64,000 nucleotides of DNA from Thiobacillus thioparus DSM 505. GTDB taxonomy: Bacteria > Pseudomonadota > Gammaproteobacteria > Burkholderiales > Thiobacillaceae. A program made the translations under genes and the position numbers. Positions 5,590 to 30,713 of this stretch are shown here, piece after piece. Location: contig NZ_KB891316.1 of the NCBI RefSeq assembly GCF_000373385.1, positions 496,001 to 560,000 of the forward strand, read 5' to 3'. Under the pieces are notes generated by a model that was given only the letters and a program-made list of their open reading frames with translations, ran no database searches and was not told the origin of the DNA. The stretch's first letter is position 1, and each line of letters begins with the position of its first letter.

Positions 5590-5630
5590 CTGTCGGATGG
5601 AACGGATTGACCTGTCGGATGATTCCTGCA
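5590..5630. promoter_or_regulatory. Tandem CTGTCGGATG direct repeats, candidate operator
   Basis: CTGTCGGATG occurs at 5590-5599 and again at 5612-5621, a 22-base period (two helical turns). The second copy is part of GTCGGA-N5-CCTGCA (5614-5630), a match to the bipartite motif found in front of many stress genes here. The site lies between divergent entericidin (5483, minus) and the kinase gene (5671, plus), so it could control both. Confidence 0.5.
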
Positions 5631-5670
5631 ATAAACAAACGCACATCATGAGCGCGAGCGAAGCCTGATC

Positions 5671-7050
5671 ATGCCGAATACGTCTCCCCCCGCCCCATTG
5701 AATGAAGGGCCGCTACCCGACGATGGGTTGCGGCGCAGCACCCATCTCTCCCTGGCAGTCGGCATGGCGCTTCTGATCGGACTGTTGGTGGCGAGCTACA
5801 TGCAGGCCTCGGCAGGCCTCGACGCCCTGAAAGAGTTCGGCTTGATGAATCAGCGGGCCGATCACCTGGACCGTTTGAGCCAGCTTCTGGTCGAGGCACA
5901 ATCCTCGGTTCGCGGCTACGCACTCACCCACGACCAGGCCTATTTCGATGTCTACAAGACCGTCCGCCCAAAAATCCACGACACGCTGGAAACCATCAAG
6001 CGTGACGAGCAGGACGGTCCGCAGGCAGGCAATGTCGACCAGCTCGTCAAACGGGCGGAAAACCTCGCAGCTCGCATGGAACTCACCGCCCGTCATGTGG
6101 AAGGCGGGATAGCGCTGGACACCAACTGGTTTGATCAGGACTCGCTGGCGATGGACGCCTACCGGCAGCAACAAGCCACGATAAAAGTTTCCCTGCTCAC
6201 GAAAAACCTGCAAAACGTCAAACAATCCACCAGCGGCTTCGAGAATGCCCGCCTCAGCGCGATCGTCCTGGCCGGCGCTTCGCTCTTGCTGCTGATGCTG
6301 GTCATCTCGCAGCAGCAGAAGAAACAGGATCTGCGGGAAAGAATCCATCGCATGCTGGCGCAGGAAAACGAGCGGCTCGAAGACGAAGTGCGTAGCCGCA
6401 CCGAAGAATTGACCAATCTTGCCACCTACCTGACCACGGTACGGGAGACGGAAAAACTGGATCTGGCGCGCGAGATGCACGACGAGCTCGGAGCGCTTCT
6501 GACCGCAGCCAAACTCGACGCAGACTGGATCGAACGCAAACTTCCATCCGACGCGCAGGCGCTGGTGGCACAACGTCTGGTGCGTCTCCGCCAGAGCCTG
6601 GCCAGCGGGATCACGCTCAAGCGCCGCATCACCAACAATCTGCGGCCTGCCCTGCTATACGATCTTGGGCTCATTGAAGCGCTGAAAGCGCTTATCGAAG
6701 AATTTCGGCAGGGCGAGGAAAAGATCGACGTCGTCGTGGCATTGCCGGAGTCCGAGCCCGAGCTCTCCGAGGACGTCTCGCTGAGCCTGTTCCGTATCGT
6801 CCAGGAGGCGTTCACCAATATCCGCAAGTATGCCCAGGCCCGTCATGTCAAGGTGGCGCTACGCATGAGCCCGGAAACCATCGAACTGGAGGTCGAGGAC
6901 GATGGCGTCGGATTCGATCCCGGTTCGCCCAAGCTCGCCCGGCATGGGCTGGCAGGCATCAAACACCGCGTTTTCACGCATGGAGGACAGCTCGATATCC
7001 GCTCCGCGCCGGATGCAGGCGTCACGATCCGGGTGAAACTTCCAGTCTGA
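5671..7050 (+). CDS. NarX-like sensor histidine kinase with CHASE3-type sensor
   Basis: This 459-residue inner-membrane kinase has a TM at about 28-45, a periplasmic helical sensor resembling CHASE3 (QLLVEAQSSVRGYALTHDQAYF) and a second TM at about 192-210 (AIVLAGASLLLLMLVIS). A coiled-coil linker leads to a HisKA_3 dimerisation domain with phospho-His 270 (REMHDELGALL) and an HATPase domain (EAFTNIRKYAQA, VEDDGVGFDP, HGLAGIKHRV). Kinases of this class pair with NarL/LuxR regulators. The convergent genes at 7071-8145 encode such a regulator and a stand-alone receiver, so the three likely form one circuit. The ligand cannot be told from sequence. Confidence 0.9.
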   Translation: MPNTSPPAPLNEGPLPDDGLRRSTHLSLAVGMALLIGLLVASYMQASAGLDALKEFGLMNQRADHLDRLSQLLVEAQSSVRGYALTHDQAYFDVYKTVRPKIHDTLETIKRDEQDGPQAGNVDQLVKRAENLAARMELTARHVEGGIALDTNWFDQDSLAMDAYRQQQATIKVSLLTKNLQNVKQSTSGFENARLSAIVLAGASLLLLMLVISQQQKKQDLRERIHRMLAQENERLEDEVRSRTEELTNLATYLTTVRETEKLDLAREMHDELGALLTAAKLDADWIERKLPSDAQALVAQRLVRLRQSLASGITLKRRITNNLRPALLYDLGLIEALKALIEEFRQGEEKIDVVVALPESEPELSEDVSLSLFRIVQEAFTNIRKYAQARHVKVALRMSPETIELEVEDDGVGFDPGSPKLARHGLAGIKHRVFTHGGQLDIRSAPDAGVTIRVKLPV

Positions 7051-7070
7051 GGCGCAGACGCCGGTCCGGT

Positions 7071-7478
7071 TCAGGGCGAAGATCGCTTCCGTGCGGCAGC
7101 TTCGTTGACGTACTCGACCAACTGGTTGATCTGCATGGATTTGTCGAAGAAGGCGTCCATCCCGAAACGGTCGCAGCGCTGGCGCATGGTGGTGTGCGCG
7201 TAGTTGGTCAGCACCACCTTGCCGGGGGATCCATACAGGCCGGAATCCGTCTGCAATGCGTCCAGCACGCCGATACCGCTGCCCTGTTTGAGTTCGATAT
7301 CGATAATCACAAGGTCGACGGGTGTCTCGGCCAGGCGGTTCAGGGCCTCGGTTTCTCCCTCCGCGCAGCCGCAGAATTCGACCCCGTCGAGTTCGCCCAG
7401 TATGCCCCCGAGGAGCTCCTGCAATAAAAGCGAATCCTCGATCAGAAAAACTTTCAACATGGAGGTATCGGAAAGCAT
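7071..7478 (-). CDS. Single-domain response regulator (receiver only)
   Basis: A 135-residue CheY-like receiver with no output domain: acidic pocket FLIEDS, phospho-acceptor Asp 60 in VDLVIIDIELKQG, the conserved Thr region VVLTNYA, and Lys in FFDKSMQ. I chose the ATG at 7478 (MLSDTSMLKVF). The longer frame would overlap the upstream regulator gene, and MLKVF at 7460 is the alternative start. It follows the NarL-type regulator by about 30 bases on the same strand and is convergent with the kinase gene. A role as phosphate sink or as modulator of that kinase is an inference. Confidence 0.83.
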   Translation of the reverse strand: MLSDTSMLKVFLIEDSLLLQELLGGILGELDGVEFCGCAEGETEALNRLAETPVDLVIIDIELKQGSGIGVLDALQTDSGLYGSPGKVVLTNYAHTTMRQRCDRFGMDAFFDKSMQINQLVEYVNEAAARKRSSP

Positions 7479-7509
7479 GGGATGGGTACTCGCCCTGTGA
7501 GACGCCGTC

Positions 7510-8145
7510 TTATTGAGCAATGAGTCCGTGTCGTATTGCATAGGTTGCCAATTCCGCGTTGCTGGTGACATTGAGCTTCTCTGTCAGCCGCGAACGATAG
7601 GTACTGATGGTCTTGACGCTGAGATGCAGCTGTTCGGCGATGTCGGACACGGATTCGCCGCGCACCAGCCTCAAGAAAACCTGAAGTTCGCGATCCGACA
7701 GAATTTCATGCAGTTCACCGCTGCGCCCGCCGCTCATTTCGTCTGCAAGCAATTCCGCAGTGCGCGACGATACATAACGGCGCCCGAGCGATACCGTATG
7801 AATCGCCTTCAACAACTCGGCCTGTTCGCAGTCCTTGCACAAATAGCCGTTGGCGCCATTCTTGATCATGGCCAACGCATAGCTTTCCTCTGGGAAGCCG
7901 CTCAGAATCAGCACCTTGAGGTCCGGGTGGCGCTGGCGTACGGTACGCAACACATCCACCCCGCTCTTGCCAGGCAATGAAATATCAAGCAGCAGCACGT
8001 CGCATGGCGTGGTGCGCAAGAGTGCCAGCGCATCGTCGCCGTTCGCCGCCTCGAAACTGATGCTGATCGCTGAATCTTCATTCAGCAGTTCTCGGAAACC
8101 GGTTCGAACAATCTGGTGATCATCCACGATGGCGACCTGGATCAT
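7510..8145 (-). CDS. NarL/LuxR-family two-component response regulator
   Basis: A 211-residue regulator with a receiver domain (VAIVDDHQIVRTGF, phospho-Asp 54 in LLLDISLPG, Lys in YLCKDCE) and a C-terminal LuxR helix-turn-helix (LSDRELQVFLRLVRGESVSDIAEQL, then LSVKTISTYRSR). It should bind DNA when phosphorylated, probably by the HisKA_3 kinase encoded convergently at 5671-7050. It is the promoter-proximal gene of a two-gene minus-strand unit with the single-domain receiver. Regulators of this type resemble UvrY/NarL in architecture. Confidence 0.92.
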   Translation of the reverse strand: MIQVAIVDDHQIVRTGFRELLNEDSAISISFEAANGDDALALLRTTPCDVLLLDISLPGKSGVDVLRTVRQRHPDLKVLILSGFPEESYALAMIKNGANGYLCKDCEQAELLKAIHTVSLGRRYVSSRTAELLADEMSGGRSGELHEILSDRELQVFLRLVRGESVSDIAEQLHLSVKTISTYRSRLTEKLNVTSNAELATYAIRHGLIAQ

Positions 8146-8193
8146 GCCATGCTCCCGCTCTGTAGGACTTTCGTCGATCTGGGCCCGGTCATG

Positions 8194-8358
8194 TCAACGA
8201 CCCCGCATGAGATTGACCACGAAGGTGGCGAGTGCCATCACCAGAAACACGATGAACAGAATCTTGGCGATGCCGGCCGCACCGGCCGCCAGCCCGGAAA
8301 ATCCGAACACGGCAGCGATGATGGCGATAATAAAAAATACCAGCGCGTAATACAACAT
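8194..8358 (-). CDS. DUF1328 (YtjA-type) small membrane protein
   Basis: A 54-residue, two-helix membrane peptide, [20 protein letters not shown] then [20 protein letters not shown]. The [18 protein letters not shown] core is the DUF1328 signature. AGGAG lies 7 bases before the ATG at 8358, which is why I prefer it to the ATG at 8364 that is almost on top of the Shine-Dalgarno. A paralogue lies at 8526-8699. These peptides are commonly stress-induced and of unknown function. GTCAGA-N5-CTTACA at 8485-8501 is 127 bases upstream and matches the recurrent bipartite motif. Confidence 0.9.
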
Positions 8359-8484
8359 GAGCATTCTCCTGGATTTTCCGCACGGGAAATGGAAAGGGCA
8401 TAACAGGACGGGATTCCCCACTGTGGATGCTTACCAGCTTAAGCCGGGCCCCAGCCTGTACCATCGGCCCCCACTGAAAGGCCT

Positions 8485-8501
8485 GTCAGATAACGCTTAC
8501 A
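8485..8501. promoter_or_regulatory. Bipartite motif copy (GTCAGA-N5-CTTACA)
   Basis: Inverse orientation of TGTARG-N5-KCTGAC. It lies 127 bases upstream of the DUF1328 gene starting at 8358. See the finding on the shared motif. Confidence 0.45.
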
Positions 8502-8525
8502 CACAGGCGCAGCAGGCAGGCATGC

Positions 8526-8699
8526 TTACTTGATTGCCCGTGCTGCGAACACCCCCAGCAGCAGAAACACGACGAAAAGAACGACCGCGATGTAGAACAG
8601 GATCTTGGCCGCAGCGGCAGCGCCCGCGGCAATGCCAGTGAATCCGAACAGGCCGGCAATCAGCGATACGACGAAAAACAACAGCGCCCATTTAAGCAT
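8526..8699 (-). CDS. Second DUF1328 small membrane protein
   Basis: A 57-residue paralogue of the preceding gene: [20 protein letters not shown], then the diagnostic [15 protein letters not shown] core and a second hydrophobic helix ending in a basic tail (ARAIK). AGGAGAGATCGCC precedes the ATG at 8699. The two copies differ at many positions outside the core, so they are not a recent duplication. It is too short for standard ORF cut-offs but is well supported by family and ribosome-binding site. Confidence 0.9.
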
Positions 8700-9193
8700 G
8701 GCGATCTCTCCTTACAGGATATTGCGGTAAAAAACGCTGGCACAGCACCGGCGCACGACAAGCGCCTTCCGCAGGAGGCTGCGAAGGCGCAAGAACGGTG
8801 ACTCCAGACCGACCTTCATACGCCCGCCCCAACGAGGATGAGGGGGCGTGATCGCGTCCGGTTGAAGATCGGCAGCATCGACATGTTTTTTTCCAGGTGG
8901 TGTCGTTACGGCAATGCTTCATCCTGGACCGGGGAACAGGAAGTGTCTGTCGGAGAACGCCACGACGCATCGCGGCAAACGGTGCGCCCCCCCGTAAGCG
9001 TCGTCCGACACCACTCAACCTGCGGCAGTCCGTCGGAGGCCGCCTACAAACGATCAAAGCATTGACGGACAAGGGACTGCGGCATACGCCCATTCGAATC
9101 CCTCATGCCGGGGCTTACGATCACTCCAGGCCTGTAATCAGATGCTGGCTCACATTTTTCTTTCCCACGTTTATTAATTAAAGGAACGCTTCC
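8700..9193. other. 494-base non-coding interval
   Basis: I see no convincing gene here; short frames lack start signals and family resemblance. It must contain the promoter of the DUF1328 gene (minus) and of the DUF883 gene (plus). TGTAAT-CAGAT-GCTGGC at 9133-9149 is a degenerate copy of the bipartite motif 45 bases before the DUF883 start. Confidence 0.5.
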
Positions 9194-9502
9194 ATGGAAC
9201 CGACAAACCTCAATCCCAAGACCCCGACTTCGCAGAACGACACCGGCAACAACACAGCCAAAGAGCACATTCACCGTTCGCTGGACGAGGCACAGGCGGG
9301 CGCGGCCGAAGCTGCCGCCCAAGGCAAGGAAATTCTTCGCGACAGCGCTGCGCAAGTCCGCGAAGCCCTCAGCCACACGACCGACCAGGCCGCCCAATAT
9401 GTGCAGGCCCAGCCCCTTAAGTCCCTGTTGATGGCGGCCGCGGCAGGCGCCGCGATCGCCATGCTCGCCGGTACGGTCGGCAAGCGTCACGGACATTCGT
9501 GA
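9194..9502 (+). CDS. DUF883 / ElaB-YqjD family membrane-anchored protein
   Basis: A 102-residue protein with a long amphipathic Ala/Gln helix (AAAQGKEILRDSAAQVREAL) and a C-terminal membrane segment, LKSLLMAAAAGAAIAMLAGT, with the Gly-rich ElaB/YqjD pattern. E. coli YqjD and ElaB are RpoS-dependent inner-membrane proteins that tether ribosomes in stationary phase; the same role here is inference. AAAGGAA lies 9 bases before the ATG. It is followed at 32 bases by a YqjE-type gene, as in the enterobacterial yqjDEK order. Confidence 0.88.
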   Translation: MEPTNLNPKTPTSQNDTGNNTAKEHIHRSLDEAQAGAAEAAAQGKEILRDSAAQVREALSHTTDQAAQYVQAQPLKSLLMAAAAGAAIAMLAGTVGKRHGHS

Positions 9503-9534
9503 TGGATCTACGCCACGGGAAGGGGCGCTGAAGG

Positions 9535-9909
9535 ATGTGGCCGCCTTTGCTCAGGATATTGCTGGACGAGCCGGCCCTCTTGGCCGAGCATGCTGCCGCC
9601 TATTCCGCGCTCATTCGGCAGGACGCGATGCGCTTGCAGGCGCGCCTGCTCCGGCGCCTGGGTTATTTGTTACTGCTGGGTGCGGGCGTCCTGCTCGCCG
9701 TGATTTTTGCAGGCATCGCACTGATGCTGCATGCGGCTAACGCAGGCTTGTATTGGCTACTGTGGGCAGTGCCTCTCATTCCCATGGTCGCCGCCGCGAT
9801 CGGCGCCTGGCGCCTGAAGGGCGACACGCCGGGATGCCCGGCGTTTTCGCGCGTGCGCACCCAAGTCGCGGACGACATGCAATTAGCCGGCTGGAAGAAA
9901 CCGCAATGA
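9535..9909 (+). CDS. YqjE-type phage-holin-superfamily membrane protein
   Basis: A 124-residue protein with two hydrophobic segments, LLLLGAGVLLAVIFAGIALM (about 46-66) and GLYWLLWAVPLIPMVAAAIG (about 72-92), preceded by an amphipathic basic helix. Size, topology and position after a DUF883 gene match YqjE. Its stop overlaps the next start (ATGA at 9906-9909), which implies translational coupling. The function is unknown. Confidence 0.78.
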   Translation: MWPPLLRILLDEPALLAEHAAAYSALIRQDAMRLQARLLRRLGYLLLLGAGVLLAVIFAGIALMLHAANAGLYWLLWAVPLIPMVAAAIGAWRLKGDTPGCPAFSRVRTQVADDMQLAGWKKPQ

Positions 9910-10319
9910 CGACTCCTGCACCTGGAATCCCAACGAACCCTCCCACCAAGCCGGAGGATCGGCTAGCGCTCAACCGCGCCATCCTGCGACAACGGCTCAC
10001 CCGCATGCAAGCTCATCGCGCACCCGGCGCGCTGGATGCGCTCGATCAACTTGCCCGAACCGCTCTCCCATTTGCACGCCGGGTGGTGGCAGAAAACCCG
10101 TATGCCAGTCTCGGCGGGGGGATGCTGGCAGGCATGATACTGATGTACTGGAAACCCTGGCGCAGTTTGAGCGGATCGGTACTGGTCGGCTTGCTTGCGC
10201 GGCAGGCACTTGCCCTTGTGCCATCGCCCGGCGCTCACGCTTTCCAGTGGTTGATGGCGGCAGCCCGCGCCGGCCGTAAACCGATCAATCCCGCTCACGC
10301 GAGCGGATCCGGAAAATGA
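9906..10319 (+). CDS. YqjK-like small protein of DUF883 operon
   Basis: A 137-residue protein with a basic N-terminal helix (LALNRAILRQRLTRMQAHRA) and a central hydrophobic stretch, SLGGGMLAGMILMYWKPW, plus a second weak one (GSVLVGLLARQALALVP). It is translationally coupled to the YqjE-type gene by an ATGA overlap and is followed after 3 bases by the phospholipase-D-family gene. Position and architecture suggest a YqjK counterpart, but sequence conservation of that family is low. I chose the ATG at 9906 because the longer frame overlaps the upstream gene by 150 bases. Confidence 0.72.
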   Translation: MTTPAPGIPTNPPTKPEDRLALNRAILRQRLTRMQAHRAPGALDALDQLARTALPFARRVVAENPYASLGGGMLAGMILMYWKPWRSLSGSVLVGLLARQALALVPSPGAHAFQWLMAAARAGRKPINPAHASGSGK

Positions 10320-10322
10320 AAC

Positions 10323-11750
10323 ATGCGGAGATTGAATTCATCCGCGGTCGGCCATTCCCGAATCCTGCCCTTTCCCGGCCTGTTCCAATGGTTGGCCCTA
10401 CTCGCCATCGCCTCGCTTTCAGCCTGCGCCACGCCGCCCGAGACGGTGCATCCGATACCCGAAGCCGGGCCCGTGGCATTTGAAAGCGCTCACGGCCCGG
10501 TTTCGACGCAAAAAAGCAAGCAGATCATCGATACCCTGGAAGACGCCTCAGGCGATAACGCCATTCTGAAAAAACATCTCGCCGTCGAGGAAGCGCTGAA
10601 CCAGGACAGTCCGCTGGTTCTGGGCAACAAACTCAGCCTCCTACAGGACGGGCCTGCCACCTATGCCGCCATGTTTGCGGCCATCCGTGCCGCCAGGCAT
10701 TCCATCAACTTGGAAACCTATATCTTCGATGACGGCAGGATCGGTACCGAATTTGCCGACCTGCTGCTGGCCAAACAGGCGTCGGGAGTTCAGGTCAATG
10801 TGATCTACGACAGCGTCGGCTGCCTGGATACCCCTGCGGAATTCTTCGATCGTCTGCGCGATGGCGGCATCCGGATTCTTGAGTTCAATCCGGTCAACCC
10901 GGCGAACGCACACAAGCGGAAATGGCGGCTCAACAACCGCGACCATCGCAAGCTGCTCGTGGTGGATGGGCGAATTGCCTTTCTGGGCGGGATCAATATC
11001 AGCGAGAGCTATTCAAGTGGTTCCTTCTCGCGATCAACGAAGAAGGGCGGCAAATCCCAGGTCGGGTGGCGCGACACGCAACTGCAGGTCGAAGGACCGG
11101 TAGTCGCCGAGCTCCAGAAATATTTCATGGACACCTGGGCACGGCAAAAAGGCCCGCCGCTGCCCGAGAAACACTATTTCCCGAAACTCGTCACCGAGGG
11201 CAAGGACATCGTGCGAGCCATCGCCAGCGAATCGGACGAACCTGCCAGTCCGATTTATCTCACCCTGCTGTCCGCCATCGACCACGCGGAGCGTTTCGTC
11301 CATCTGACCAATGCCTATTTCGTGCCGGATCCTCATCTGGTTCACGCCTTGATCGGCGCGGCACGTCGCGGAGTGGATGTACAACTTATCCTGCCCGGAA
11401 AAAGCGATTCATGGCTGGTCTTCCAGGCCGGGCGGTCGCATTACACCGAACTGCTACGCGCCGGCATCCGGATCTACGAACGTCGCGATACCGTCCTGCA
11501 TGCCAAGACGGCGTCGATTGACGGTGTATGGGCCACGATCGGCTCGACCAATCTCGACTGGCGAAGCTATTTGCACAACGACGAAATCAATGCCGTGATT
11601 CTGGGCGCCCATTTCTCACGTCAGATGGAAGCCATGTTCGACCAGGATCGGGCGGCTTCCACCCTGATCGAACCCGCCCGCTGGCAACGCCGCTCTCCCC
11701 TGCAGCATATGAAGGAATGGGTCGCACGGCGGTTCGAATACTGGCTGTAG
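10323..11750 (+). CDS. Phospholipase D-family lipoprotein, cardiolipin synthase-like
   Basis: A 475-residue protein with two HKD catalytic motifs: HRKLLVVDG with His 208, and LHAKTASIDG with His 393, each followed by the GG or GSTN turn (FLGGINIS, IGSTNLDWRS). This is the cardiolipin synthase B/C or PLD-like arrangement, in which two phosphatidylglycerols, or phosphatidylglycerol and another phospholipid, are joined. The N-terminus has a signal with lipobox LSAC (about residue 37), unlike classic ClsA with two TMs, so the enzyme would be membrane-anchored on the periplasmic side. It is the last gene of the DUF883-YqjE-YqjK-like operon, suggesting envelope remodelling in stress. Confidence 0.88.
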   Translation: MRRLNSSAVGHSRILPFPGLFQWLALLAIASLSACATPPETVHPIPEAGPVAFESAHGPVSTQKSKQIIDTLEDASGDNAILKKHLAVEEALNQDSPLVLGNKLSLLQDGPATYAAMFAAIRAARHSINLETYIFDDGRIGTEFADLLLAKQASGVQVNVIYDSVGCLDTPAEFFDRLRDGGIRILEFNPVNPANAHKRKWRLNNRDHRKLLVVDGRIAFLGGINISESYSSGSFSRSTKKGGKSQVGWRDTQLQVEGPVVAELQKYFMDTWARQKGPPLPEKHYFPKLVTEGKDIVRAIASESDEPASPIYLTLLSAIDHAERFVHLTNAYFVPDPHLVHALIGAARRGVDVQLILPGKSDSWLVFQAGRSHYTELLRAGIRIYERRDTVLHAKTASIDGVWATIGSTNLDWRSYLHNDEINAVILGAHFSRQMEAMFDQDRAASTLIEPARWQRRSPLQHMKEWVARRFEYWL

Positions 11751-11796
11751 CCCGCTTCCGCCATTTCATTCCCGCAACCATAGAAAGGAGCTTGTG

Positions 11797-12342: not shown

Positions 12343-12406
12343 GACCTGCAACTGCCGGCTTGCAACGCTTCGCAAGCGTATCCCGGCATCCCGTGGACGC
12401 GCTGCC

Positions 12407-12423
12407 GTCGGACATATCCTACT
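12407..12423. promoter_or_regulatory. Degenerate bipartite motif copy upstream of tsdB
   Basis: GTCGGA-N5-CCTACT, 90 bases before the tsdB start, matches the inverse of the recurrent motif at most positions. It is weak on its own. Confidence 0.3.
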
Positions 12424-12512
12424 GCGTGCCTGATGCTAGCCTGACTGCAGGCCCCTCGAGGTTCCTCTATTCTGTTATTCTGTCCACTCGGCCAACCAAT
12501 GGGAGCCCCTCC

Positions 12513-14233: not shown

Positions 14234-14370
14234 CGTGAGGGATCGTCGGCTCAGCTTTGCGAGAACAGCGCGCCAAAACGTATATCCGGTTTGCCACTTC
14301 AGGCCTGTTGCGGCGGGCCTACCGGTACCGCCCACGCTGCGAATAAACCATGAATTTCCGGGAGCTTAAA

Positions 14371-14405
14371 GCCCGCCGCTTACGCTCCGGCGTGCTTCTT
14401 TTTCT
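14371..14405 (+). terminator. Probable intrinsic terminator after tsdBA
   Basis: GCCCGCCG pairs with CGGCGTGC around a loop of about 9 bases with one mismatch, followed by TTCTTTTT. It sits about 140 bases after the tsdA stop and before the hemerythrin promoter region. Confidence 0.45.
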
Positions 14406-14418
14406 CCGTGCTGCCACT

Positions 14419-14435
14419 TATAGGGATTGTCTGAC
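14419..14435. promoter_or_regulatory. Bipartite motif copy (TATAGG-N5-TCTGAC)
   Basis: It lies 117 bases upstream of the hemerythrin start, in the same orientation as the gene. It differs from TGTAGG-N5-GCTGAC at two positions. Confidence 0.45.
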
Positions 14436-14551
14436 ACGCAGTTGGGGGGAAGGCGATTGTGTACAGGCGGAGTACCCCGTTTAATGCAAAATACCTTGTC
14501 GGACAACTGTCTGGAGGTTCGTTTGTTCATCCCTTTTCCAGAGGAAAAAAT

Positions 14552-15034: not shown

Positions 15035-15160
15035 AGCCGGGTGGGCCTGCTCAGCGAAAACCGGATCATCGCGGAAGCAGTCTGGGGGCGATCTGAATGG
15101 CGCCCCATCCGGCGCTTGCCTGACCCGATTTTCGCCATGGTCTTCCTTACGGGCGCTGCT

Positions 15161-16063
15161 TCATCGACTGACGCGAGCGACACATCCTGCCGCCCGCTGG
15201 TGGATCCGATGCAGGCGATACAACTGGTGGGTGACCTCCGCTCCGTAGAGCATGATCAGCGAAACGTAATAGACCCACAGCAGGATCACCGCCAGCGAAC
15301 CGGCCGCCCCGAACGTGCTCATGATCGCCCCTCGGCCCAGATACAGTCCGATTCCCCATTTGCCCACCTCGAACAGCACCGCGGATACCGCGGCACCCGT
15401 CAGCAGAATGCGGCGCGGAAGCCGTACCGGTATGAGCAGACGGTAGAGCAGCAGCACCAGCGCGGTCATGGAGGCCAGCGAGACCAGGGTCTGGAACACG
15501 CCGGCCAGTCCTAACCAGGTACCGAAGCCGCGTGTGAGATAGTTACCCAATGCAATGGTCGCGGTACTTGCCAGCAGCGAGACGATGAGCAAAAAGCCGA
15601 CGCCGATGAGGATGGCCAGCCCGCGCAGGCGATCCATCAGCAGCACTGTCATCACGTGACGGTACTCGCGTTTCGCGCCGAAGATCCGTTCGAAGGCCAC
15701 GCTCATTTCAACGAACAGCCCCGTGGCGCCCATCAGCATGCCAGCGAGCCCAAGCAGGATCGCAATGCCGCTCTGGCCGGACAGATAGCTCGCTTCCAAC
15801 AGTCTCTGCACCAGACTGGCGCCCGCGTGGCCCAGTAAGCCTTCCATCTGGACCACGATCCGTCCCTCGACGGCATCCCGACCAAAAAACAGGCCGGAGA
15901 TCGACACGGCGATGACGAGTATGGGCGAGAGCGCGAAGACGGCGTAATAGGCCAGCGCTGCGCCATGCGTCGTCAGGCGGTGTGCCGCCCAGCTCCGGCC
16001 GGCGCGGATGGGAACCCGCAGATAACGCATCCGCCACCGACTCCGACTATTCCTTCCGGCCAT
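15161..16063 (-). CDS. YihY/BrkB (UPF0761) family inner-membrane protein
   Basis: A 300-residue protein with six hydrophobic helices and the family's signatures: the N-terminal THGAALAYYAVFALSPILVI, and the C-terminal VILLWVYYVSLIMLYGAEVT. Formerly called ribonuclease BN; that activity is not supported for this family. Its true role is unclear, with transport or envelope integrity the current ideas. The C-terminus (HQLYRLHRIHQRAAGC) is short and basic. The ATG at 16063 or one at 16030 (MRYLRVPI) could be used. It is convergent with the hemerythrin gene. Confidence 0.88.
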   Translation of the reverse strand: MAGRNSRSRWRMRYLRVPIRAGRSWAAHRLTTHGAALAYYAVFALSPILVIAVSISGLFFGRDAVEGRIVVQMEGLLGHAGASLVQRLLEASYLSGQSGIAILLGLAGMLMGATGLFVEMSVAFERIFGAKREYRHVMTVLLMDRLRGLAILIGVGFLLIVSLLASTATIALGNYLTRGFGTWLGLAGVFQTLVSLASMTALVLLLYRLLIPVRLPRRILLTGAAVSAVLFEVGKWGIGLYLGRGAIMSTFGAAGSLAVILLWVYYVSLIMLYGAEVTHQLYRLHRIHQRAAGCVARVSR

Positions 16064-16375
16064 GCGTAGGCGTCCTCTTTGTATGTGCTGATTCTAGTGC
16101 AGCCCCATGTCGGCTTTCGCCGCGCAAACGTGCATGCAGGTGCTCCCCACGCGCTATCGGGATGCACCCACACACACATGGGAAGCCTCCTACAAAGTGC
16201 TCGGCGGTGACTGGTGATGGGGACACATCTTTCTCCCTAACATACCGGCACGATGTGCGAAAACGTGCAAAAGGATCGCCATGAGACACAGCCCGGGGCG
16301 TAACCCGTCCACGCAATATTGCGACAAGGAAACCGTGGGCGCCGGGTGCGGTGTGCTTCTGCCCCGGAAAGCAAA
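16064..16375. other. 312-base non-coding interval
   Basis: I see no gene with a credible start and no strong hairpin. It separates the divergent YihY and low-affinity iron permease-like genes and must hold both promoters. Confidence 0.5.
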
Positions 16376-22241: not shown

Positions 22242-22300
22242 GCCTCCGATAGGGATTGATCAATGAGGTTATACGTCATTCCGGACGGGTTCGGGTGCAG

Positions 22301-24214: not shown

Positions 24215-24270
24215 CGAGCAACCGGATCGGCTTCACTGAGCGACGCACCTGGCAATGGGTGCTTATCCGT

Positions 24271-24654
24271 TCAGAACGCCGTTCCGAATCCCTTGTCTTG
24301 TTCCAGCCTGAGGGTAGGTAATCCTGCGAGCTCATGAATCGGCATGAGGACGCCGCGCGTGCCTGGCACGGCGTCGAACAGCCGGTACAGATATTTTCCG
24401 CCTCCCTTGAACTCATACGCTTCCTCAAGGAAGCGCATGTGTTCGTGCGCGGCAAGACAGTCGCGTGACCTGCAATCCTGTTTGTAGTGTTCGATCAGGG
24501 AATGGATCACGCTCATGTGTTCGTCGGTGACGTCAAAGTCTCGGGCGGCTGCGTTATCCCGGACCGTCTTCTCGACCTCGTCCCGCGCGAGGTGCCTGAC
24601 CGCGTCGTAAATCGGGATCTCTCCGTCGCGGGCGATGCTTTCGCTGTTATTCAT
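24271..24654 (-). CDS. DsrC/TusE-family protein lacking the C-terminal cysteines
   Basis: A 127-residue protein that matches DsrC/TusE in the helix VTDEHMSVIHSLIEHYKQDC, the core GGGKYLYRLFDAVPG and the end ELAGLPT. In DsrC and TusE the C-terminal arm ends in a redox-active, conserved cysteine (often two). Here the arm is LRLEQDKGFGTAF with no cysteine. It therefore cannot carry a persulfide like DsrC or relay sulfur like TusE, and may belong to the Cys-less regulatory group described for this family. Its neighbours are the Fe-SOD and catalase genes on the same strand. Confidence 0.75.
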   Translation of the reverse strand: MNNSESIARDGEIPIYDAVRHLARDEVEKTVRDNAAARDFDVTDEHMSVIHSLIEHYKQDCRSRDCLAAHEHMRFLEEAYEFKGGGKYLYRLFDAVPGTRGVLMPIHELAGLPTLRLEQDKGFGTAF

Positions 24655-24687
24655 GGGATTAATTCCTTGACGTGATGGCTTCGGGTT

Positions 24688-25362
24688 TCAGGCGAGATTG
24701 TCGGCGGCAAACTTCCAGTTGATGAGTTTGTCGATGACTCCGGCCACATGGTCCTTGCGCCGGTTCTGGTAATCGAGGTAATACGCGTGTTCCCATACGT
24801 CAATGGCGAGCAGGGGCTTCATGCCCGACGTCAGCGGCGTATCCGCGTCCTCGGTCTTCATCACGCTGATTTTCTTGCCTTCCAGAACCAGCCAGGCCCA
24901 GCCGGTTCCGAACTGGGTCACGGCGGCATGCAGGAGTTCCTGACGGCACGCCTCGACCGAACCAAAGGATGCGTCGATCATCTGCTTCAGGATCGGCGAC
25001 GGATCGCCTCCTCCTTTTTCGCAGAGACTGTCCCAGTAGAACGCGTGGTTCCAGGCCTGAGCCGCATTATTGAAAATCTCGGTTTTTCCGCCCGCGCCGG
25101 AAGCCAGGATCATGGCCTTGATCGGCATGGCCTGGAACTCGGTGTCGTCGATCGCCTTGTTGAGGGCATCGATATAGGTTTGATGATGCTTGCCATGGTG
25201 GAACCTGAGCGTGTTTTCGGAAATGACCGGGCTCAGCGCATCCATGGCATAAGGCAAGGCCGGAAGTTCGTAGGGGAAACTCATGTTCTCGAGCATGGCC
25301 GTACTGATGCCGCCGGATGTCGCCAGGGTCGAGGAAGGGAAAGCACGTTGCGGGAAATTCAT
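24688..25362 (-). CDS. sodB: Superoxide dismutase [Fe]
   Basis: The product dismutates superoxide to O2 and H2O2. Fe/Mn-SOD ligands are seen in LRFHHGKHHQTYIDAL, AAQAWNHAFYWDSL and DVWEHAYYLDYQN; the Gln in NNAAQAWNHAFYW favours the iron type. The classic N-terminus MSFPYELPALPYAMDAL begins at 25284, but the only strong ribosome-binding site (AGGAG, 7 bases) precedes the ATG at 25362. That start adds 26 residues (MNFPQRAFPSSTLATSGG...). I therefore annotate 224 residues and note the shorter start. It lies 45 bases after the katE stop on the same strand, so the two peroxide/superoxide genes are likely co-expressed. Confidence 0.9.
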   Translation of the reverse strand: MNFPQRAFPSSTLATSGGISTAMLENMSFPYELPALPYAMDALSPVISENTLRFHHGKHHQTYIDALNKAIDDTEFQAMPIKAMILASGAGGKTEIFNNAAQAWNHAFYWDSLCEKGGGDPSPILKQMIDASFGSVEACRQELLHAAVTQFGTGWAWLVLEGKKISVMKTEDADTPLTSGMKPLLAIDVWEHAYYLDYQNRRKDHVAGVIDKLINWKFAADNLA

Positions 25363-25406
25363 ATAGGAGCTCCTTTCAAAGATTGAGTGAGAGTGGCCAG
25401 CGGGTG

Positions 25407-27518
25407 CTATGCCTGGACAAGCACGGCTCGCGACCAGACGCGTCCGTATTTGGCTGCGTCGATATAGGAGGTCACGCCTCCTCGAGTATCTATCTCCACG
25501 ATGCCGTCGTCGATTGCGGCTTCAGCCCGGTCCAGAAGAGGCATCGCATCGGGCGTGTACCCGATGATTTTCAGATGCGCATAGGCATCGAGAATGAAAT
25601 TCATCACCGCCGCCTTCTGCTTCATGGCATCGACAACCGGCCCGGAAATGGCCAGAACGACCGTATCGAACAGGACCGAGGGAGCGGCCGCCACGGCGTG
25701 GTGCGGCGTGAGTGTCTGGCCAGAACTGGATTTGATTTCGCCGACATGCGGACCGATCAGTTCCAGAACCGCGCCTTCGGTCTCGGCCGCGGTCTGCAGG
25801 GCATCCAGAATGGCGGAGTCGTAGCCCTCGCTGACCAGGACGCCGATCTTGCGGCCTTCCAGCGTGGGCTTAGCCTTCGCCAACAGACTGAGGGTCGGGG
25901 AAAGGTCCAGATCGACCGGCGGTGCAGCCGGAGCAATCGCGTCGGCCTGGCCTTCCATGCCCAGCCCCCGCTCCACCCTGTCGCACAGTTCCGGATCGAC
26001 ATGGCGGAGATGGCCGAGTACGCGGCGACGTATGGCGACGGTTTCCACCTTGCCGAGCTCGAAGGCAAAAGCGCTGGCGATATGATCCTGTTCCGGCGCG
26101 GTCATCGAACGGTAGAACAGGCGCGCCTGGCTGTAATGGTCCCTGAAGGACTCCGGTCGCACCCGCATCTTATCGCCGCTTTGGGTGGCAGGATGCGTGG
26201 CAAATCCGGCGGCCGGATTTTCTTTCGGCGATTCGGGTGCAAGGCTGTTCGGCTCGTAGTTCACCCGCCCCTGGGGAACGTCCGTCTGCATGAGGGCATC
26301 GCGCTGAAAGTTGTGCATCGGACAGCGCGGCCGATTGATGGGCAGCTGATGGAAATTGGGACCGCCAAGCCGAGACAGCTGGGTGTCGAGATAGGAAAAG
26401 AGCCGCCCCTGCAGCAGGGGATCGTCGCTGAAATCGATGCCCGGCACGACATGTCCCGGATGGAAGGCGACCTGCTCGGTCTCGGCAAAGAAATTGTCGG
26501 GATTGCGGTTCAACACCATTTTCCCGATCGGCTGCAACGGCAGGGTTTCTTCCGGAATCAGCTTGGTCGGATCCAGTACGTCGAAGGGCAAGGACTCGGC
26601 GGTGGCCTCGTCGAATGTCTGCACCGACAGCTCCCATTCCGGGAAGTCGCCGCGCTCGATCGCCTCGTACAGGTCGCGCCGGTGAAAGTCGGGGTCTGCG
26701 CCGCAAATCTTCACGGCCTCGTCCCACAGGACGGAAGCCGAGCCGATGCGGGGACGCCAGTGGAACTTGACGAAAATCGACTTTCCCTCCGCGCTGACAA
26801 AGCGAAAGGTATGGACCCCGAACCCTTCCATCATGCGCAGCGAACGCGGGACCGCCCGATCGGACATGGCCCATAGGATCATGTGCATGCTCTCGGGCAT
26901 GAGGGAAACGAAATCCCAGAACGTGTCGTGCGCAGTCGCCGCCTGGGGATAGCCGCGGTCGGGTTCCATTTTGGCGGCGTGGACCAGATCGGGAAATTTC
27001 ATCGCATCCTGGATGAAGAACACCGGGATGTTATTGCCCACCAGATCGAAATTGCCTTCTTCCGTGTAGAACTTGACGGCAAACCCACGCACGTCGCGCG
27101 GCAGATCGACGGATCCCGCCCCGCCGGCGACCGTGGAGAAGCGTGCAAACACGGGCGTCAGCACATCCGGGTTGCGCAGGAAGGCCGCGCAGGTCAGTTC
27201 GCCAAGATCGCGATAAGCCTGGAAATAGCCGTGCGCGCCCGAGCCGCGCGCATGCACGATCCGCTCGGGGATGCGTTCGTGGTCGAAGTGGGTGATTTTC
27301 TCCCGCAGGACAAAGTCCTCGAGCAGCGTCGGCCCCCGTTCGCCGGCGGTGAGCGAATTCTGATCGTCCGCAATCACCACGCCCTGATTGGTCGTGAGCG
27401 AATGACCGCGCTGGTCGGTCGTCTGATGCAATTCGCCACCGTTACCCGCCTGCTCGAACGGATGCGGGGCGGTATTCCTTTTCGCGGGCGTAGGGGACGT
27501 ATTCTTCGGCTTGGTCAT
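25407..27518 (-). CDS. katE: Large-subunit (HPII, clade 2) catalase
   Basis: A 703-residue monofunctional haem catalase, H2O2 to water and O2. Seen are the distal His 89 in RIVHARGSGAHGYF, Asn near 162 in LVGNNIPVFFIQDAMKFP, the haem-binding RMMEGFGVHTFRFV, and the proximal Tyr in RLFSYLDTQLSRLG. The C-terminal ~150 residues form the flavodoxin-like domain of large catalases (RKIGVLVSEGYDSAILDAL, DTVVLAISGPVVDA). E. coli KatE is RpoS-dependent, fitting the stress context. The sodB-like gene follows directly. Confidence 0.95.
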   Translation of the reverse strand: MTKPKNTSPTPAKRNTAPHPFEQAGNGGELHQTTDQRGHSLTTNQGVVIADDQNSLTAGERGPTLLEDFVLREKITHFDHERIPERIVHARGSGAHGYFQAYRDLGELTCAAFLRNPDVLTPVFARFSTVAGGAGSVDLPRDVRGFAVKFYTEEGNFDLVGNNIPVFFIQDAMKFPDLVHAAKMEPDRGYPQAATAHDTFWDFVSLMPESMHMILWAMSDRAVPRSLRMMEGFGVHTFRFVSAEGKSIFVKFHWRPRIGSASVLWDEAVKICGADPDFHRRDLYEAIERGDFPEWELSVQTFDEATAESLPFDVLDPTKLIPEETLPLQPIGKMVLNRNPDNFFAETEQVAFHPGHVVPGIDFSDDPLLQGRLFSYLDTQLSRLGGPNFHQLPINRPRCPMHNFQRDALMQTDVPQGRVNYEPNSLAPESPKENPAAGFATHPATQSGDKMRVRPESFRDHYSQARLFYRSMTAPEQDHIASAFAFELGKVETVAIRRRVLGHLRHVDPELCDRVERGLGMEGQADAIAPAAPPVDLDLSPTLSLLAKAKPTLEGRKIGVLVSEGYDSAILDALQTAAETEGAVLELIGPHVGEIKSSSGQTLTPHHAVAAAPSVLFDTVVLAISGPVVDAMKQKAAVMNFILDAYAHLKIIGYTPDAMPLLDRAEAAIDDGIVEIDTRGGVTSYIDAAKYGRVWSRAVLVQA

Positions 27519-27649
27519 GGACTCTCTCTTCTATGCGATCAGGGTTCGTCCGCAAGAACAGCGGGCGGGGGGATCGGGAAGTCGTCCGGTCGCGACGTGG
27601 CGCCCGATCCGCTGATAGGCGCCAGGGGACGCACACCGGAACTCGCCTG

Positions 27650-28042
27650 CTATTGCATGTATTTCATTTTCGCCTCGCTGACGCAGGCATCCTTCGCGCT
27701 GCCCGACAGGCTGTCGCAACGCTCCTTGGCGGCCTTGTAGTCGGCTTTCATCTTGTCTTCGTTGGCTTCGGCCTGGCTATCGGTCGCTTTCTCATCTGCC
27801 TTGGCCTGGGCCTTGGCGCCGACATAGGCGGCCTTCGCATCCTTCATGCATACGTCCTTCGCATTGCCAGCCATTTTTTTGCAATTGTCCTTGGCTATGT
27901 CGTAGTTCCTTTCTGCCTGATTCTTGGCGGCGTCGTGGCGGGCCTCGGCTCGATCTTCCATGACATCCTTCATATCGGCGGCATAGAGCGGAGCCATGGC
28001 GGAAAGCCCCAAGGCAATGAACATCGCGTTGCGTAATTTCAT
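27650..28042 (-). CDS. Secreted Cys-repeat protein A
   Basis: A 130-residue exported protein: signal MKLRNAMFIALGLSAMAPLYA, then a highly charged helical mature part. It holds two repeats of the form C-x4-G-x-A-K-x2-C, NCKKMAGNAKDVCMKDAK and RCDSLSGSAKDACVSEAK, with Lys/Ala/Gln-rich helical spacers. AAGGAG precedes the ATG at 28042. The gene at 28322-28759 encodes a paralogue with the same repeats, and both share a 52-base upstream element. Function is unknown; periplasmic disulfide-stabilised helices or metal binding are possible. Confidence 0.83.
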   Translation of the reverse strand: MKLRNAMFIALGLSAMAPLYAADMKDVMEDRAEARHDAAKNQAERNYDIAKDNCKKMAGNAKDVCMKDAKAAYVGAKAQAKADEKATDSQAEANEDKMKADYKAAKERCDSLSGSAKDACVSEAKMKYMQ

Positions 28043-28170
28043 TTCAAACTCCTTCAAGTGGATTTGGGTGGCGAACTGGCCGGAGCGTCCGATGGCTGGC
28101 ATGCTGCCTGTCGGTCGGCTCGGCGTGATCACCACTCTAGGTCCCGCGGCTTGTGTCCACCATCCGCATT

Positions 28171-28222
28171 CGCCGAGAAAATTGTCAGTTTCCGTTCTCG
28201 GCGATGTAGGCAGATGCTGACG
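28171..28222 (-). promoter_or_regulatory. 52-base conserved upstream element, copy A
   Basis: It lies 129-180 bases upstream of the gene at 27650-28042 and is 38/52 identical, without gaps, to 28899-28950. It includes the inverted pair GCCGAGAA/TTCTCGGC and the bipartite motif TGTAGG-CAGAT-GCTGAC at 28205-28221. Confidence 0.6.
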
Positions 28223-28321
28223 CCCCACACGCCTCATGCCCTGTGCACAGGCGTGCACCGATAGGAAAGAACGTGGCGCACGCGGAGAGCGGCCTCTGGG
28301 GCCACGACCTCCGTGCGATCG

Positions 28322-28759
28322 CTATTTATAAGAACCGTTGGACGAACCGGCTGGCGAGCCGGGCTGCCCGGATGAGCCGTCAGTGGGTCCTCCCATGGGG
28401 GACTCACCCGGCATATCGGTGCGACCGCCATCCTGCTGGCGTTTCATGCCCGGTGAATCGACGGACGAACGGGGATGTTTGCTCGTCGCATCCTTCATAC
28501 ACGTCGACTTTGCCGTTCCAGTCAGATCCTTGCACTTTTCCTCAGCTGCGCTTTTCATGCATTTTGACTTGGCCGCCCCGGTCTTTTTCTTGCAGTTATC
28601 CAGGGCATCCTGGTAGTTCTTTTGGGTCGCGTCACTTGTCATGCCGGTCGACGTACTGGATTGATCCTGTTGGTGGCCGCTTGAATCGGCGGCATACAGC
28701 GGCCCGGCGGCAGAAACGGCAAAACCGAGCGCCAGGAATATTGCGGGATTGAGCTTCAT
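28322..28759 (-). CDS. Secreted Cys-repeat protein B
   Basis: A 145-residue exported protein: signal MKLNPAIFLALGFAVSAAGP ending LYAADS, then the repeats NCKKKTGAAKSKCMKS and KCKDLTGTAKSTCMKD (C-x4-G-x-A-K-x2-C), and a Pro/Gly/Ser-rich, probably disordered tail (DMPGESPMGGPTDGSSGQPG). It is a paralogue of the neighbour at 27650-28042. AAGGAG lies 7 bases before the ATG at 28759. The function is unknown; the tail suggests attachment or display rather than catalysis. Confidence 0.82.
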   Translation of the reverse strand: MKLNPAIFLALGFAVSAAGPLYAADSSGHQQDQSSTSTGMTSDATQKNYQDALDNCKKKTGAAKSKCMKSAAEEKCKDLTGTAKSTCMKDATSKHPRSSVDSPGMKRQQDGGRTDMPGESPMGGPTDGSSGQPGSPAGSSNGSYK

Positions 28760-28898
28760 GGATATCTCCTTCAATAATGGGTTTGAACACGACCCAATCG
28801 GATTGGCGCGCCATGAGCAGAGACTCGTGCCGCCGGCCTCACGCTCGATTCGGTGTTTTGAACGTTAATTCCTGCGCAGGGAGGGCGGTATCCGACAC

Positions 28899-28950
28899 TG
28901 CCGATAAAACTGTAAGTTTCCCGGCACGGCAATGTAGGTTCTCGCTGACG
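28899..28950 (-). promoter_or_regulatory. 52-base conserved upstream element, copy B
   Basis: It lies 140-191 bases upstream of the gene at 28322-28759. The inverted pair is TGCCG/CGGCA, so pairing is kept although the bases differ from copy A. The motif TGTAGG-TTCTC-GCTGAC is at 28933-28949. Confidence 0.6.
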
Positions 28951-29046
28951 GACAACTGGGCGCCCGTTTCCGGTCCGGACGCGCCAGCGGGACGCTCGGT
29001 AACCGCCCTTCTGGGGGTTCGCTGCGGAAGAGATCGCGCGTCGATT

Positions 29047-29379
29047 TCATCCAGACCGTTCGGCTTCCGGCTTCTTGGCTGCGGCATGACGGGCGCGTGT
29101 TTGGGCAGCCTTCTTCGCCGAGGCACTACGTTCGGCTGCCGTGCGCGCGGCAGAGGCAGCGCCACCCTTTCTGCCGCCCGACCTGGCGGGAGACGGATCG
29201 ATTTCCTTGCCTCGCCCCGAACCGCTTTTCTTGCCTCCTCCCGTCATTTTGTTGACGGTGGCCCAAGCACGCGCTTCGGCTTCATCCTGCGGGACACCGC
29301 GCTCGCGGTAGCTGTCTTCGATGTGCTCAGCCTGGCGTTTCTGTTTGTCGGTGTACTTCGCTTTGCTTCCTCTTGGCAT
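29047..29379 (-). CDS. Basic Lys/Ala-rich protein, unknown (histone-H1-like tail)
   Basis: A 110-residue protein. The N-terminal ~48 residues (MPRGSKAKYTDKQKRQAEHI, then EDSYRERGVPQDEAEARAWA, TVNKMTGGGKK) are a conserved module often labelled plasmid stabilisation without evidence. The rest is a low-complexity basic tail (AASAARTAAERSASAKKAAQ) like histone-H1-type or AlgP tails, so DNA or RNA binding is likely. AGGAG precedes the ATG at 29379. It lies about 80 bases after the gene at 29461-29688 on the same strand. Confidence 0.78.
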   Translation of the reverse strand: MPRGSKAKYTDKQKRQAEHIEDSYRERGVPQDEAEARAWATVNKMTGGGKKSGSGRGKEIDPSPARSGGRKGGAASAARTAAERSASAKKAAQTRARHAAAKKPEAERSG

Positions 29380-29460
29380 GACGGCCTCCTTCCTCTGCGT
29401 GATCACGCTGTATCGGCCCCCACTCTCCGGCTAACCGGAAGGGACGATGGCCCGCACGCT

Positions 29461-29688
29461 TCAACGAACCGGCTCCGCGGTGGGCGGACACGCTCCGGAG
29501 CCTTCGGCTCGTGCTGGTTCGCCCTGCGCGAAGCGGGTACATCCGCTGCGACCCGATACGCGCAACATATAAGGCTGGAGCGTTGCGTCGATGCACAGGC
29601 CGTGGGTTGCGCTCTCCAGATGGGCACTCGGTTCGATCTGCCACCATTTGCAAGACATGCAGACGCCCCAGTGGCTCGTACTGTTCAT
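29461..29688 (-). CDS. Small Cys-containing protein, possible metal binding
   Basis: A 75-residue protein: MNSTSHWGVCMSCKWWQIEP then AHLESATHGLCIDATLQPYM and LRVSGRSGCTRFAQG. The four spaced cysteines (CxxC, C, C) with aromatic residues between resemble small zinc- or iron-sulfur-binding domains, though I cannot name a family. GGAG lies 7 bases before the ATG at 29688. It appears to precede the gene at 29047-29379 in one transcript. Confidence 0.7.
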   Translation of the reverse strand: MNSTSHWGVCMSCKWWQIEPSAHLESATHGLCIDATLQPYMLRVSGRSGCTRFAQGEPARAEGSGACPPTAEPVR

Positions 29689-29784
29689 GTGAACTCCTCG
29701 AATAAGCCGGAAAATCCTGCGGGCAATCCCGCCCGGCGGATAGAAGACGCCGCCCCTCTCCATACAGACAAGGACGGAAGTCCA

Positions 29785-30147
29785 TCACTCCCAGTACGGG
29801 CGGACGCCATAATGCGCATGGACATTCGTACCCCAATCGCGATCGGAGAAATTCGGCCAGTTGTCCTTGTCGAACCCGGGTGCGTTTTTCAGCGTTTCCT
29901 TGCTCTGGTCGAAGATGAAGCGGTGGTTTTCCGGATCGACTTCCATCGCCGAAAGGGGGACGGCAAACAACTTGCTGCCTAAGCCGAGGAAACCGCCGAA
30001 TTCCAGAACCGCATACGCGACGCGACCGCTATCGACATCGATCATCAGGTCCTTGATGTCGCCCAGATCCTCGCCTTGGCGATTGACGACCTTGTCGCCC
30101 GAGATCGTACTGGATGAAAGGATGGGGCTGGATGAAAACATATTCAT
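29785..30147 (-). CDS. PRC-barrel domain protein
   Basis: A 120-residue protein with a PRC-barrel: GDKVVNRQGEDLGDIKDLMI, VDSGRVAYAVLEFGGFLGLG, KLFAVPLSAMEVDPENHRFI. The C-terminal tail GFDKDNWPNFSDRDWGTNVH is typical of the stand-alone PRC-barrel stress proteins of proteobacteria. Such proteins are induced by osmotic or desiccation stress; the ligand is unknown. GGAG lies 7 bases before the ATG at 30147, preferred over 30165. Confidence 0.9.
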   Translation of the reverse strand: MNMFSSSPILSSSTISGDKVVNRQGEDLGDIKDLMIDVDSGRVAYAVLEFGGFLGLGSKLFAVPLSAMEVDPENHRFIFDQSKETLKNAPGFDKDNWPNFSDRDWGTNVHAHYGVRPYWE

Positions 30148-30198
30148 GGGTATCTCCTGATTCATTGGATAAATTCAACGCGTGACAAAGCGGAGGGC

Positions 30199-30513
30199 TC
30201 AACGTCCGGGCAGCTTTTCAGGAGCGGGGTTGCGTCCTTGAGGATGCTTTCCGGGCGCTTCCTTGACCGGCTTGGGACGACTGGGCGACCCATTGTCCTT
30301 ACTGCCTTTTGGATCGACCTTGGCGTGCGATCGTCCTTCGGCTTCGGCCCTGCGCATGTCCTCCTTCTCCTGTGCATTGCGCGGTGCGGCCGCTTTCGCC
30401 GCCTGCTCGACCTTGCCGGACTCGGCAAAGGCACGCGCTTGCTCATCGTATTTTTTGGCAGAGTCGTAATCGCCCTCGCCCTGTATTCCGGATTTGCTCG
30501 TATTGGGTTTCAT
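30199..30513 (-). CDS. Hydrophilic low-complexity protein, unknown
   Basis: A 104-residue, highly charged, probably disordered protein (YDSAKKYDEQARAFAESGKV, EQAAKAAAPRNAQEKEDMRR) with a Lys/Pro/Gly-rich tail. It looks like a desiccation- or stress-type hydrophilin. AGGAG lies near the ATG at 30513. Two tandem bipartite motif copies are at 30673-30689 and 30697-30713, about 160 bases upstream. Confidence 0.72.
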   Translation of the reverse strand: MKPNTSKSGIQGEGDYDSAKKYDEQARAFAESGKVEQAAKAAAPRNAQEKEDMRRAEAEGRSHAKVDPKGSKDNGSPSRPKPVKEAPGKHPQGRNPAPEKLPGR

Positions 30514-30672
30514 GACATGTTTCTCCTGTCCAGAATGCACGCCCGGCGGATGCCGGCATGACAGACCACGGCTCGCCCTCCGCATCTGCGGCGAGATGGA
30601 GCCGGTCCGAGCCTGTAGGGGCAGTGTGGATGAGTGGCGGGGCGGCTGCAGTCGGAGGCAGTTGCAAGCCCG

Positions 30673-30713
30673 CGTAGGAATCAGCCGAAAAATACCGGTA
30701 GGAATTTACTGAT
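30673..30713. promoter_or_regulatory. Tandem bipartite motif copies
   Basis: CGTAGG-N5-GCCGAA (30673-30689) and GGTAGG-N5-ACTGAT (30697-30713), 24 bases apart, in front of the hydrophilin-like gene. They overlap the 3' end of the BLUF gene. Confidence 0.4.

Follow-up and report, generated by a model that had tools for sequence, protein, structure and literature searches.

Gene surroundings and the palindromic motif

The window, meaning the whole stretch of 64,000 nucleotides analysed here (positions 496001-560000 of contig NZ_KB891316.1; G000:C1:496001-560000), belongs to the 3.20 Mb genome of Thiobacillus thioparus DSM 505 and carries a two-component system next to genes for small stress proteins, with a short DNA motif recurring upstream of them. 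The kinase gene (5671..7050, plus strand) codes for a histidine kinase with Pfam CHASE3, HisKA_3 and HATPase_c domains, the presumed partner of a response regulator (RR; 7510..8145, minus strand) that joins a receiver domain to a LuxR-type helix-turn-helix (Pfam Response_reg and GerE) and that we propose as reader of the motif. A stand-alone receiver protein (7071..7478, minus strand, presumed start at 7478; Pfam Response_reg) lies downstream of the RR gene, and DUF1328a, one of two DUF1328 genes, precedes it on the same strand, giving the gene string DUF1328a-RR-receiver. In almost every locus mapped in other genomes the RR gene is flanked by a kinase homologue, and the receiver protein adjoins it in relatives too. 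Other neighbours are an entericidin gene, a ferritin-like gene, the second DUF1328 gene (DUF1328b), a DUF883-type gene (weak match), a PLD enzyme, a hemerythrin and two cytochrome genes, for which we keep the names tsdB and tsdA of the initial annotation; the second of these matches SoxA/TsdA.

The initial annotation had described nine copies of a bipartite motif, TGTARG-N5-KCTGAC. All nine exist at their coordinates, but only those at 28205 and 28933 fit this consensus fully. The motif is real and its definition was incomplete: judged from sequence, it is an 18-bp imperfect palindrome, TGTMRG-N6-CYKACA, resembling the UvrY/GacA operator, and forms only the upstream part of a larger composite promoter. 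Eight places in the window match the palindrome with at most one mismatch (5613, 8484, 8993, 9031, 14419, 28205, 28933 and 36608), the one at 8484 being exact and those at 8993 and 9031 having been overlooked. Among the copies listed before, those at 12406 and 30673 have two mismatches and those at 9133 and 30697 have three.

Such words could be products of chance or base composition, a loose GC-rich motif picked by eye. Some listed sites are indeed degenerate, and with up to one mismatch allowed the whole genome has 88 palindromes where the backwards control has 66, which puts the loose motif close to chance at that scale. The genome scan on which the initial annotation had wished the motif to be judged thus gives a divided answer, because the motif is near chance genome-wide, yet clustered in the window and conserved upstream of orthologous genes. 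The eight places in the window compare with 1.8 expected from the rest of the genome (Poisson P 3e-4), and 781 kb of this genome beyond the window hold 1.1 palindromes with at most one mismatch per 64 kb.

For comparison, 80 named RR loci, chosen by RR similarity and not by their sites, were grouped by RR identity and title under names of our own: 21 Thiobacillus-type loci, 40 Rhodocyclales-type loci (including also a Limnobacter metagenome-assembled genome (MAG), a Granulosicoccaceae strain and three Thiogranum MAGs) and 19 Burkholderiales-type loci (RR 54-57% identical). When arm spacings from 0 to 12 were counted, the Thiobacillus-type loci had 36 exact palindromes at N6 and none at the twelve other spacings. 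The Rhodocyclales-type loci had 13 at spacing 6 and at most 4 at any other, and the Burkholderiales-type loci 7 and at most 1. When 1344 trimer palindromes were ranked without a presupposed motif in the regions preceding the RR of 46 loci, TGT-N12-ACA came first, with 43 occurrences where 5.8 were expected; other words also ranked high, presumably from conserved coding sequence. Three sites elsewhere in the genome (C2:325812, C2:170786 and C12:224447) were set aside since they lie inside long open reading frames. Two adjacent near-palindromes occupy an apparent gap (L159:2530-2569, G000:C2:265329-265368) upstream of a frame that we take, from its first residues, for AprA.

The composite promoter

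A second element was first suggested by alignments upstream of DUF1328a and entericidin. Its position was then measured on 145 non-redundant sites (of 198 from the window and the 80 loci), each viewed in both orientations to give 290 views. Counted from the right arm, the half-site C[CT][GT]A[CT] stands at +22 in 67 views and at +23 in 14, the other offsets between 6 and 84 having 0-11 views each (mean about 3). A -10-like hexamer, TAnnnT, follows the +22 half-site in 57 cases among the 67 views, at +26 in 17, at +27 in 37 and at +28 in 3. The layout is predictive across clades. Matrices trained on 19 Thiobacillus-type loci (the closest strains, L079 and L093, left out) found composites scoring at least 18 in 40 of 40 Rhodocyclales-type loci, with 76 hits against 1 in reversed sequence; trained on the 40 Rhodocyclales-type loci alone, they found them in 19 of 19 Thiobacillus-type loci, with 61 hits against none. 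On the 781-kb sample of the T. thioparus genome either single-clade matrix gave no composite at 18 and one at 16. Strict spacing, the 22-bp partner, the -10 position and this cross-clade prediction all contradict chance, which we hold to be very improbable for the motif as a whole and which is refuted for the sites at 5613 and 8484; it may still account for those at 9133, 30697 and 36608, and perhaps 16177.

Window sites were scored with a two-box matrix trained without the window, L079 and L093. Its maximum in the 781-kb sample was 15.9, and the reversed control gave nothing at 16. The best site is the palindrome TGTAAGCGTTATCTGACA (8484..8501, minus strand; score 38.4), about 127 bp before DUF1328a, the sole exact match in the genome, conserved in relatives and placed at the head of the DUF1328a-RR-receiver string. 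Its half-site CCGATGG lies at +22 (8461..8467, minus strand) and a -10-like TAAGCT at 8436..8441 (minus strand). The palindrome between entericidin and the kinase gene (5613..5630, minus strand; score 37.1) is conserved into Rhodocyclales-type loci and belongs to a composite facing entericidin, with the half-site CCGACAG at +22 (5590..5596, minus strand) and TATGAT at 5563..5568 (minus strand). This site is only 41 bp before the kinase start, and repression of divergent genes is known from some members of this regulator class. Both points would suit a repressor operator, or a dual role in the divergent entericidin/kinase region; as the palindrome and half-site lie upstream of the entericidin-facing -10, an activating layout, we regard repression as quite unlikely.

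Composites before tsdB, hemerythrin and the BrkB-like gene also exceed the sample. The tsdB-like cytochrome gene is preceded by a palindrome with two mismatches (12406..12423, plus strand; 18.8), a half-site at +23 (12441-12447) and TATTCT (12468-12473), and tsdB-facing composites recur in L079 and L093, both outside the training set. The hemerythrin site (14419..14436, plus strand) scores 17.2, made up of 17.7 for the palindrome, 0.3 for the half-site and -0.8 for the -10, its half-site-like GCGATTG (14453-14459) and TTTAAT (14480-14485) both being off the rule. A possible extra site (16177..16194, minus strand) lies 114 bp before a BrkB-like membrane protein gene (15161-16063; Pfam BrkB) and is marginal, with a composite score of 16.5, or 15.0 and 16.6 with the single-clade matrices.

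The remaining sites score lower. Both Cys-rich genes have a palindrome (28205..28222 for gene 1 and 28933..28950 for gene 2, minus strand; scores below 11 and 11.2), a half-site at +22 (28182-28188 and 28910-28916) and a second, one-mismatch half-site at +44 (CGGATGG, 28160-28166, and CGGATAC, 28888-28894), which TAnnnT follows (TAGAGT, 28134-28139, and TAACGT, 28862-28867); the ladder of gene 1 recurs, by eye, in the close strain G005. The hydrophilin-like gene (hyd) is preceded by a degenerate palindrome with two mismatches (30673..30690, minus strand; 12.4) with a half-site at +23 (30649-30655) and, 24 bp further upstream, by a weaker palindrome-like word with three mismatches (30697-30714); hyd-facing composites of 16-17 are found in 4 relatives. 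The intergenic region of DUF1328b and DUF883 holds two palindromes 38 bp apart, one at 9031..9048 (plus strand) with a weak composite of its own (13.4) and one at 8993..9010 (no strand assigned) without a half-site at +22 or +23; DUF883-facing composites of at least 16 occur in 8 relatives. The loci behind the hyd and DUF883 counts were partly used in training.

When 7 sites of the initial annotation are read towards their genes, a half-site follows at +22 or +23 in 6 (binomial P 7e-11), hemerythrin being the exception, and the count becomes 6 of 9 with the DUF883 and DUF1328b sites, both without it. Five of the 7 have TAnnnT 26-28 bp beyond a half-site. The upstream position first noted holds for most listed sites and is conserved in relatives at DUF1328a and entericidin. 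In the 21 Thiobacillus-type loci, most of which helped to train the matrix, 52 of 72 composites scoring at least 16 point to a gene start mapped no more than 300 bp away: DUF1328 in 23 cases, entericidin in 13, DUF883 in 8, hyd in 4, tsdB in 2, and bfr and tsdA in 1 each. The distance from -10 to start is 56-110 for DUF1328 in 22 of 23 cases (176 in the other) and 77-100 for the 13 entericidin genes. Among 8 loci picked for a long gap between the site and DUF1328 or the RR, the gap contains a CsbD-like frame in 7 (confirmed by Pfam for one, L099), so the distance from site to start is kept while the first gene changes; the eighth, the Thiogranum locus L136, has a small lipoprotein-like frame in its place. 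From these alignments, related environmental bacteria appear to share a fixed promoter layout that recurs ahead of small stress genes.

The initial annotation saw in the boxes an activator or sigma-associated operator. Geometry, conservation and orientation of the composite argue for the first, a probable activator-type operator. Distances of 115-175 bp upstream would also suit a PrsR-like sigma-54 enhancer or a promoter element of some other alternative sigma factor. A search for sigma-54 -24/-12 promoters, with GG and GC kept invariant and at least 10 of 12 letters matching, found none close downstream of any site, and a -10 at a fixed distance is present instead; we consider such an element hardly credible.

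The response regulator as proposed reader of the boxes

The motif, first presented as tied to no known regulator, can be linked to the LuxR-type RR at 7510-8145, whose putative operon lies behind the best site. We privilege, with a probability of about 0.8, the reading that the boxes are the high-affinity operator of this cluster's own NarL/FixJ-class, UvrY-like RR; its own gene string stands behind the strongest composite. The best NCBIfam model for the RR is UvrY/SirA/GacA (NF007018), at 180 bits; no gene of this genome passes the model's cut-off of 280. Ranked by RR identity, the closest named relatives of the window are Thiobacillus and Hydrogenophilales MAGs.

Another LuxR-type regulator might read the boxes instead, a candidate being the 44% identical paralogue at G000:C18:134119. 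The UvrY/GacA model gives this paralogue 203 bits against 180 for the RR, both below the cut-off; similar genes (41-49%) occur in most genomes of the genus, and recognition helices are alike across this regulator class. Yet no palindrome with at most one mismatch lies in the 20 kb that include this paralogue, the 7 loci of such paralogues together hold a single one, near a locus end, and the sites accompany the cluster RR across Thiobacillus-type, Rhodocyclales-type and Thiogranum loci. We find it unlikely that this paralogue or another such regulator is the reader.

The genus comparison drew on 35 relatives within a set of 60 genomes, the own genome counted. An RR orthologue (76-97% identity) is present in 13 of the 35; in the other 22 the best RR matches reach at most 49% and the kinase matches at most 39% identity. 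Exact palindromes average 4.7 in the 14 genomes with the RR (control 0.9) against 2.5 in the 22 without it (one-sided P 0.0013), a difference due at least partly to the cluster itself. A DUF1328 paralogue occurs in 11 of those 22 genomes (12 loci, L180-L191), and some of these loci carry TGTCG-N8-CGACA, a looser word that could belong to another regulator, either some 160 bp upstream of the gene or past it.

The locus also varies among its holders. The RR module is present twice in G024, about 11 kb apart (L044 and L045; G024:C1:1457035 and 1467967), with the same palindrome before each copy. The Thiogranum MAG locus L136 (7300-15900) has two tandem RR modules. Composites precede the first module and an entericidin-like gene lying past the second; in front of the RR of the second module there is only a one-mismatch palindrome. 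In Massilia/Duganella-type loci (L144, L149 and L151-L155; RR 54% identical) an exact palindrome lies beyond the kinase gene, at about +3100 from the RR start, where no composite promoter was found.

Several findings weigh against our reading of the boxes. Genomes of the genus without the RR still hold exact palindromes above their control (mean 2.5 against 1.3). Only five window sites exceed the 781-kb sample, hemerythrin by its palindrome alone, and the scores at DUF883, hyd and both Cys-rich genes are within noise; at hemerythrin and hyd the predicted position holds no TAnnnT. In the 223 views that lack a half-site at +22, TAnnnT peaks again 73 bp past the right arm (21 views), and half-site words appear at +46 to +48. 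The model accounts for neither, and we took them for a second layout. Twenty of the 72 composites have no mapped start within 300 bp, several of them, by position, preceding tsdB or entericidin genes with an unmapped start and the remainder unexplained. The 19 Burkholderiales-type loci gave one weak composite only (16.2), and palindrome-dominated scores of 22 and 24 arise outside the cluster in the relatives G011 (L164) and G033 (L167). Related loci are moreover non-independent, and because loci were chosen by RR similarity, presence of the RR is inseparable from presence of the cluster.

The main matrix, run over 781 kb beyond the window (about 24% of the genome), gave no composite of at least 16. 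Within that share no strong site lies away from the cluster, so the regulon looks local in this genome and is, over the sequence scanned, no genome-wide stress regulon. The sites at L164:2261 and L167:2122, in G011 and G033, are possible further regulon members, the latter adjoining a gene with a response-regulator match.

Under our reading, the CHASE3 kinase would sense an envelope or stress signal and phosphorylate the RR, a dimer of which would bind TGTMRG-N6-CYKACA with its centre about 64 bp before the transcription start. Further RR subunits would bind cooperatively 22 bp downstream, in one step at most genes and in two at the Cys-rich genes. As the last half-site occupies the -35 position, inferred from the -10, the RR could recruit RNA polymerase, perhaps with sigma-70 or sigma-S, to the TAnnnT -10. 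The position of DUF1328a-RR-receiver behind the best site leads us to expect self-activation. On balance we lean towards a two-component module that activates itself and belongs to betaproteobacteria and some gammaproteobacteria, in which a UvrY-like regulator with a UvrY-type palindrome and a BvgA-type 22-bp ladder would switch on DUF1328, CsbD and entericidin genes and, in Thiobacillus, also the tsdB-like cytochrome gene and perhaps hemerythrin. To our knowledge, genes for DUF1328, CsbD, DUF883 and entericidin are widespread and little is known of their regulation outside enterobacteria; if correct, the reading would give these small stress proteins a dedicated regulator. Regulator, operator and promoter layout are predicted at base resolution and can be tested in culturable Thiobacillus, Azoarcus and Thauera.

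Comparison with known systems

Among the matches listed from the open-licence literature, no title or abstract start describes this module. The UvrY operator is an 18-bp inverted repeat, TGTAAG-N6-CTTACA, centred near -182 at csrB in the available part of that report (PMC4682653). The present system shares with UvrY/SirA/GacA the 18-bp palindrome with its N6 core and the receiver plus LuxR-type helix-turn-helix architecture, and this family is the nearest model of the RR. Unlike its members, the RR scores below the family cut-off, and whereas the UvrY repeat serves small RNA genes, as far as the available text goes, the boxes here precede protein genes, with a presumed centre near -64 and a half-site near -35. 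No Rfam match at gathering score was found within the window, where Csr/Rsm small RNAs were in question. In contrast to BarA/GacS, the neighbouring kinase is of the CHASE3-HisKA_3 type and not a hybrid, no search for a hybrid kinase elsewhere having been made. EmbRS of Rubrivivax likewise pairs a betaproteobacterial LuxR-type RR with a kinase, but that kinase has ten predicted transmembrane helices and the system a biofilm role, and the part of the account available (PMC3684757) gives no operator.

The geometry resembles that of BvgA of Bordetella, which, in the accessible part of PMC7250471, binds as head-to-head dimers every 22 bp along one helix face, starting at a strong upstream repeat, with the last site directly next to -35. 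Here too successive sites follow in 22-bp steps and end near a -35 deduced from the -10. The TGTMRG arms differ, by eye, from the one Pfha primary site compared from that source, and relative to the BvgA arrays it presents, the downstream sites here show one conserved half each and the target genes are others. The present system is a combination of UvrY operator sequence and BvgA geometry, assigned to neither by the tests run. If the reading is correct, both features would be united in one regulator, which bears on how regulators of the NarL/FixJ class have diversified.

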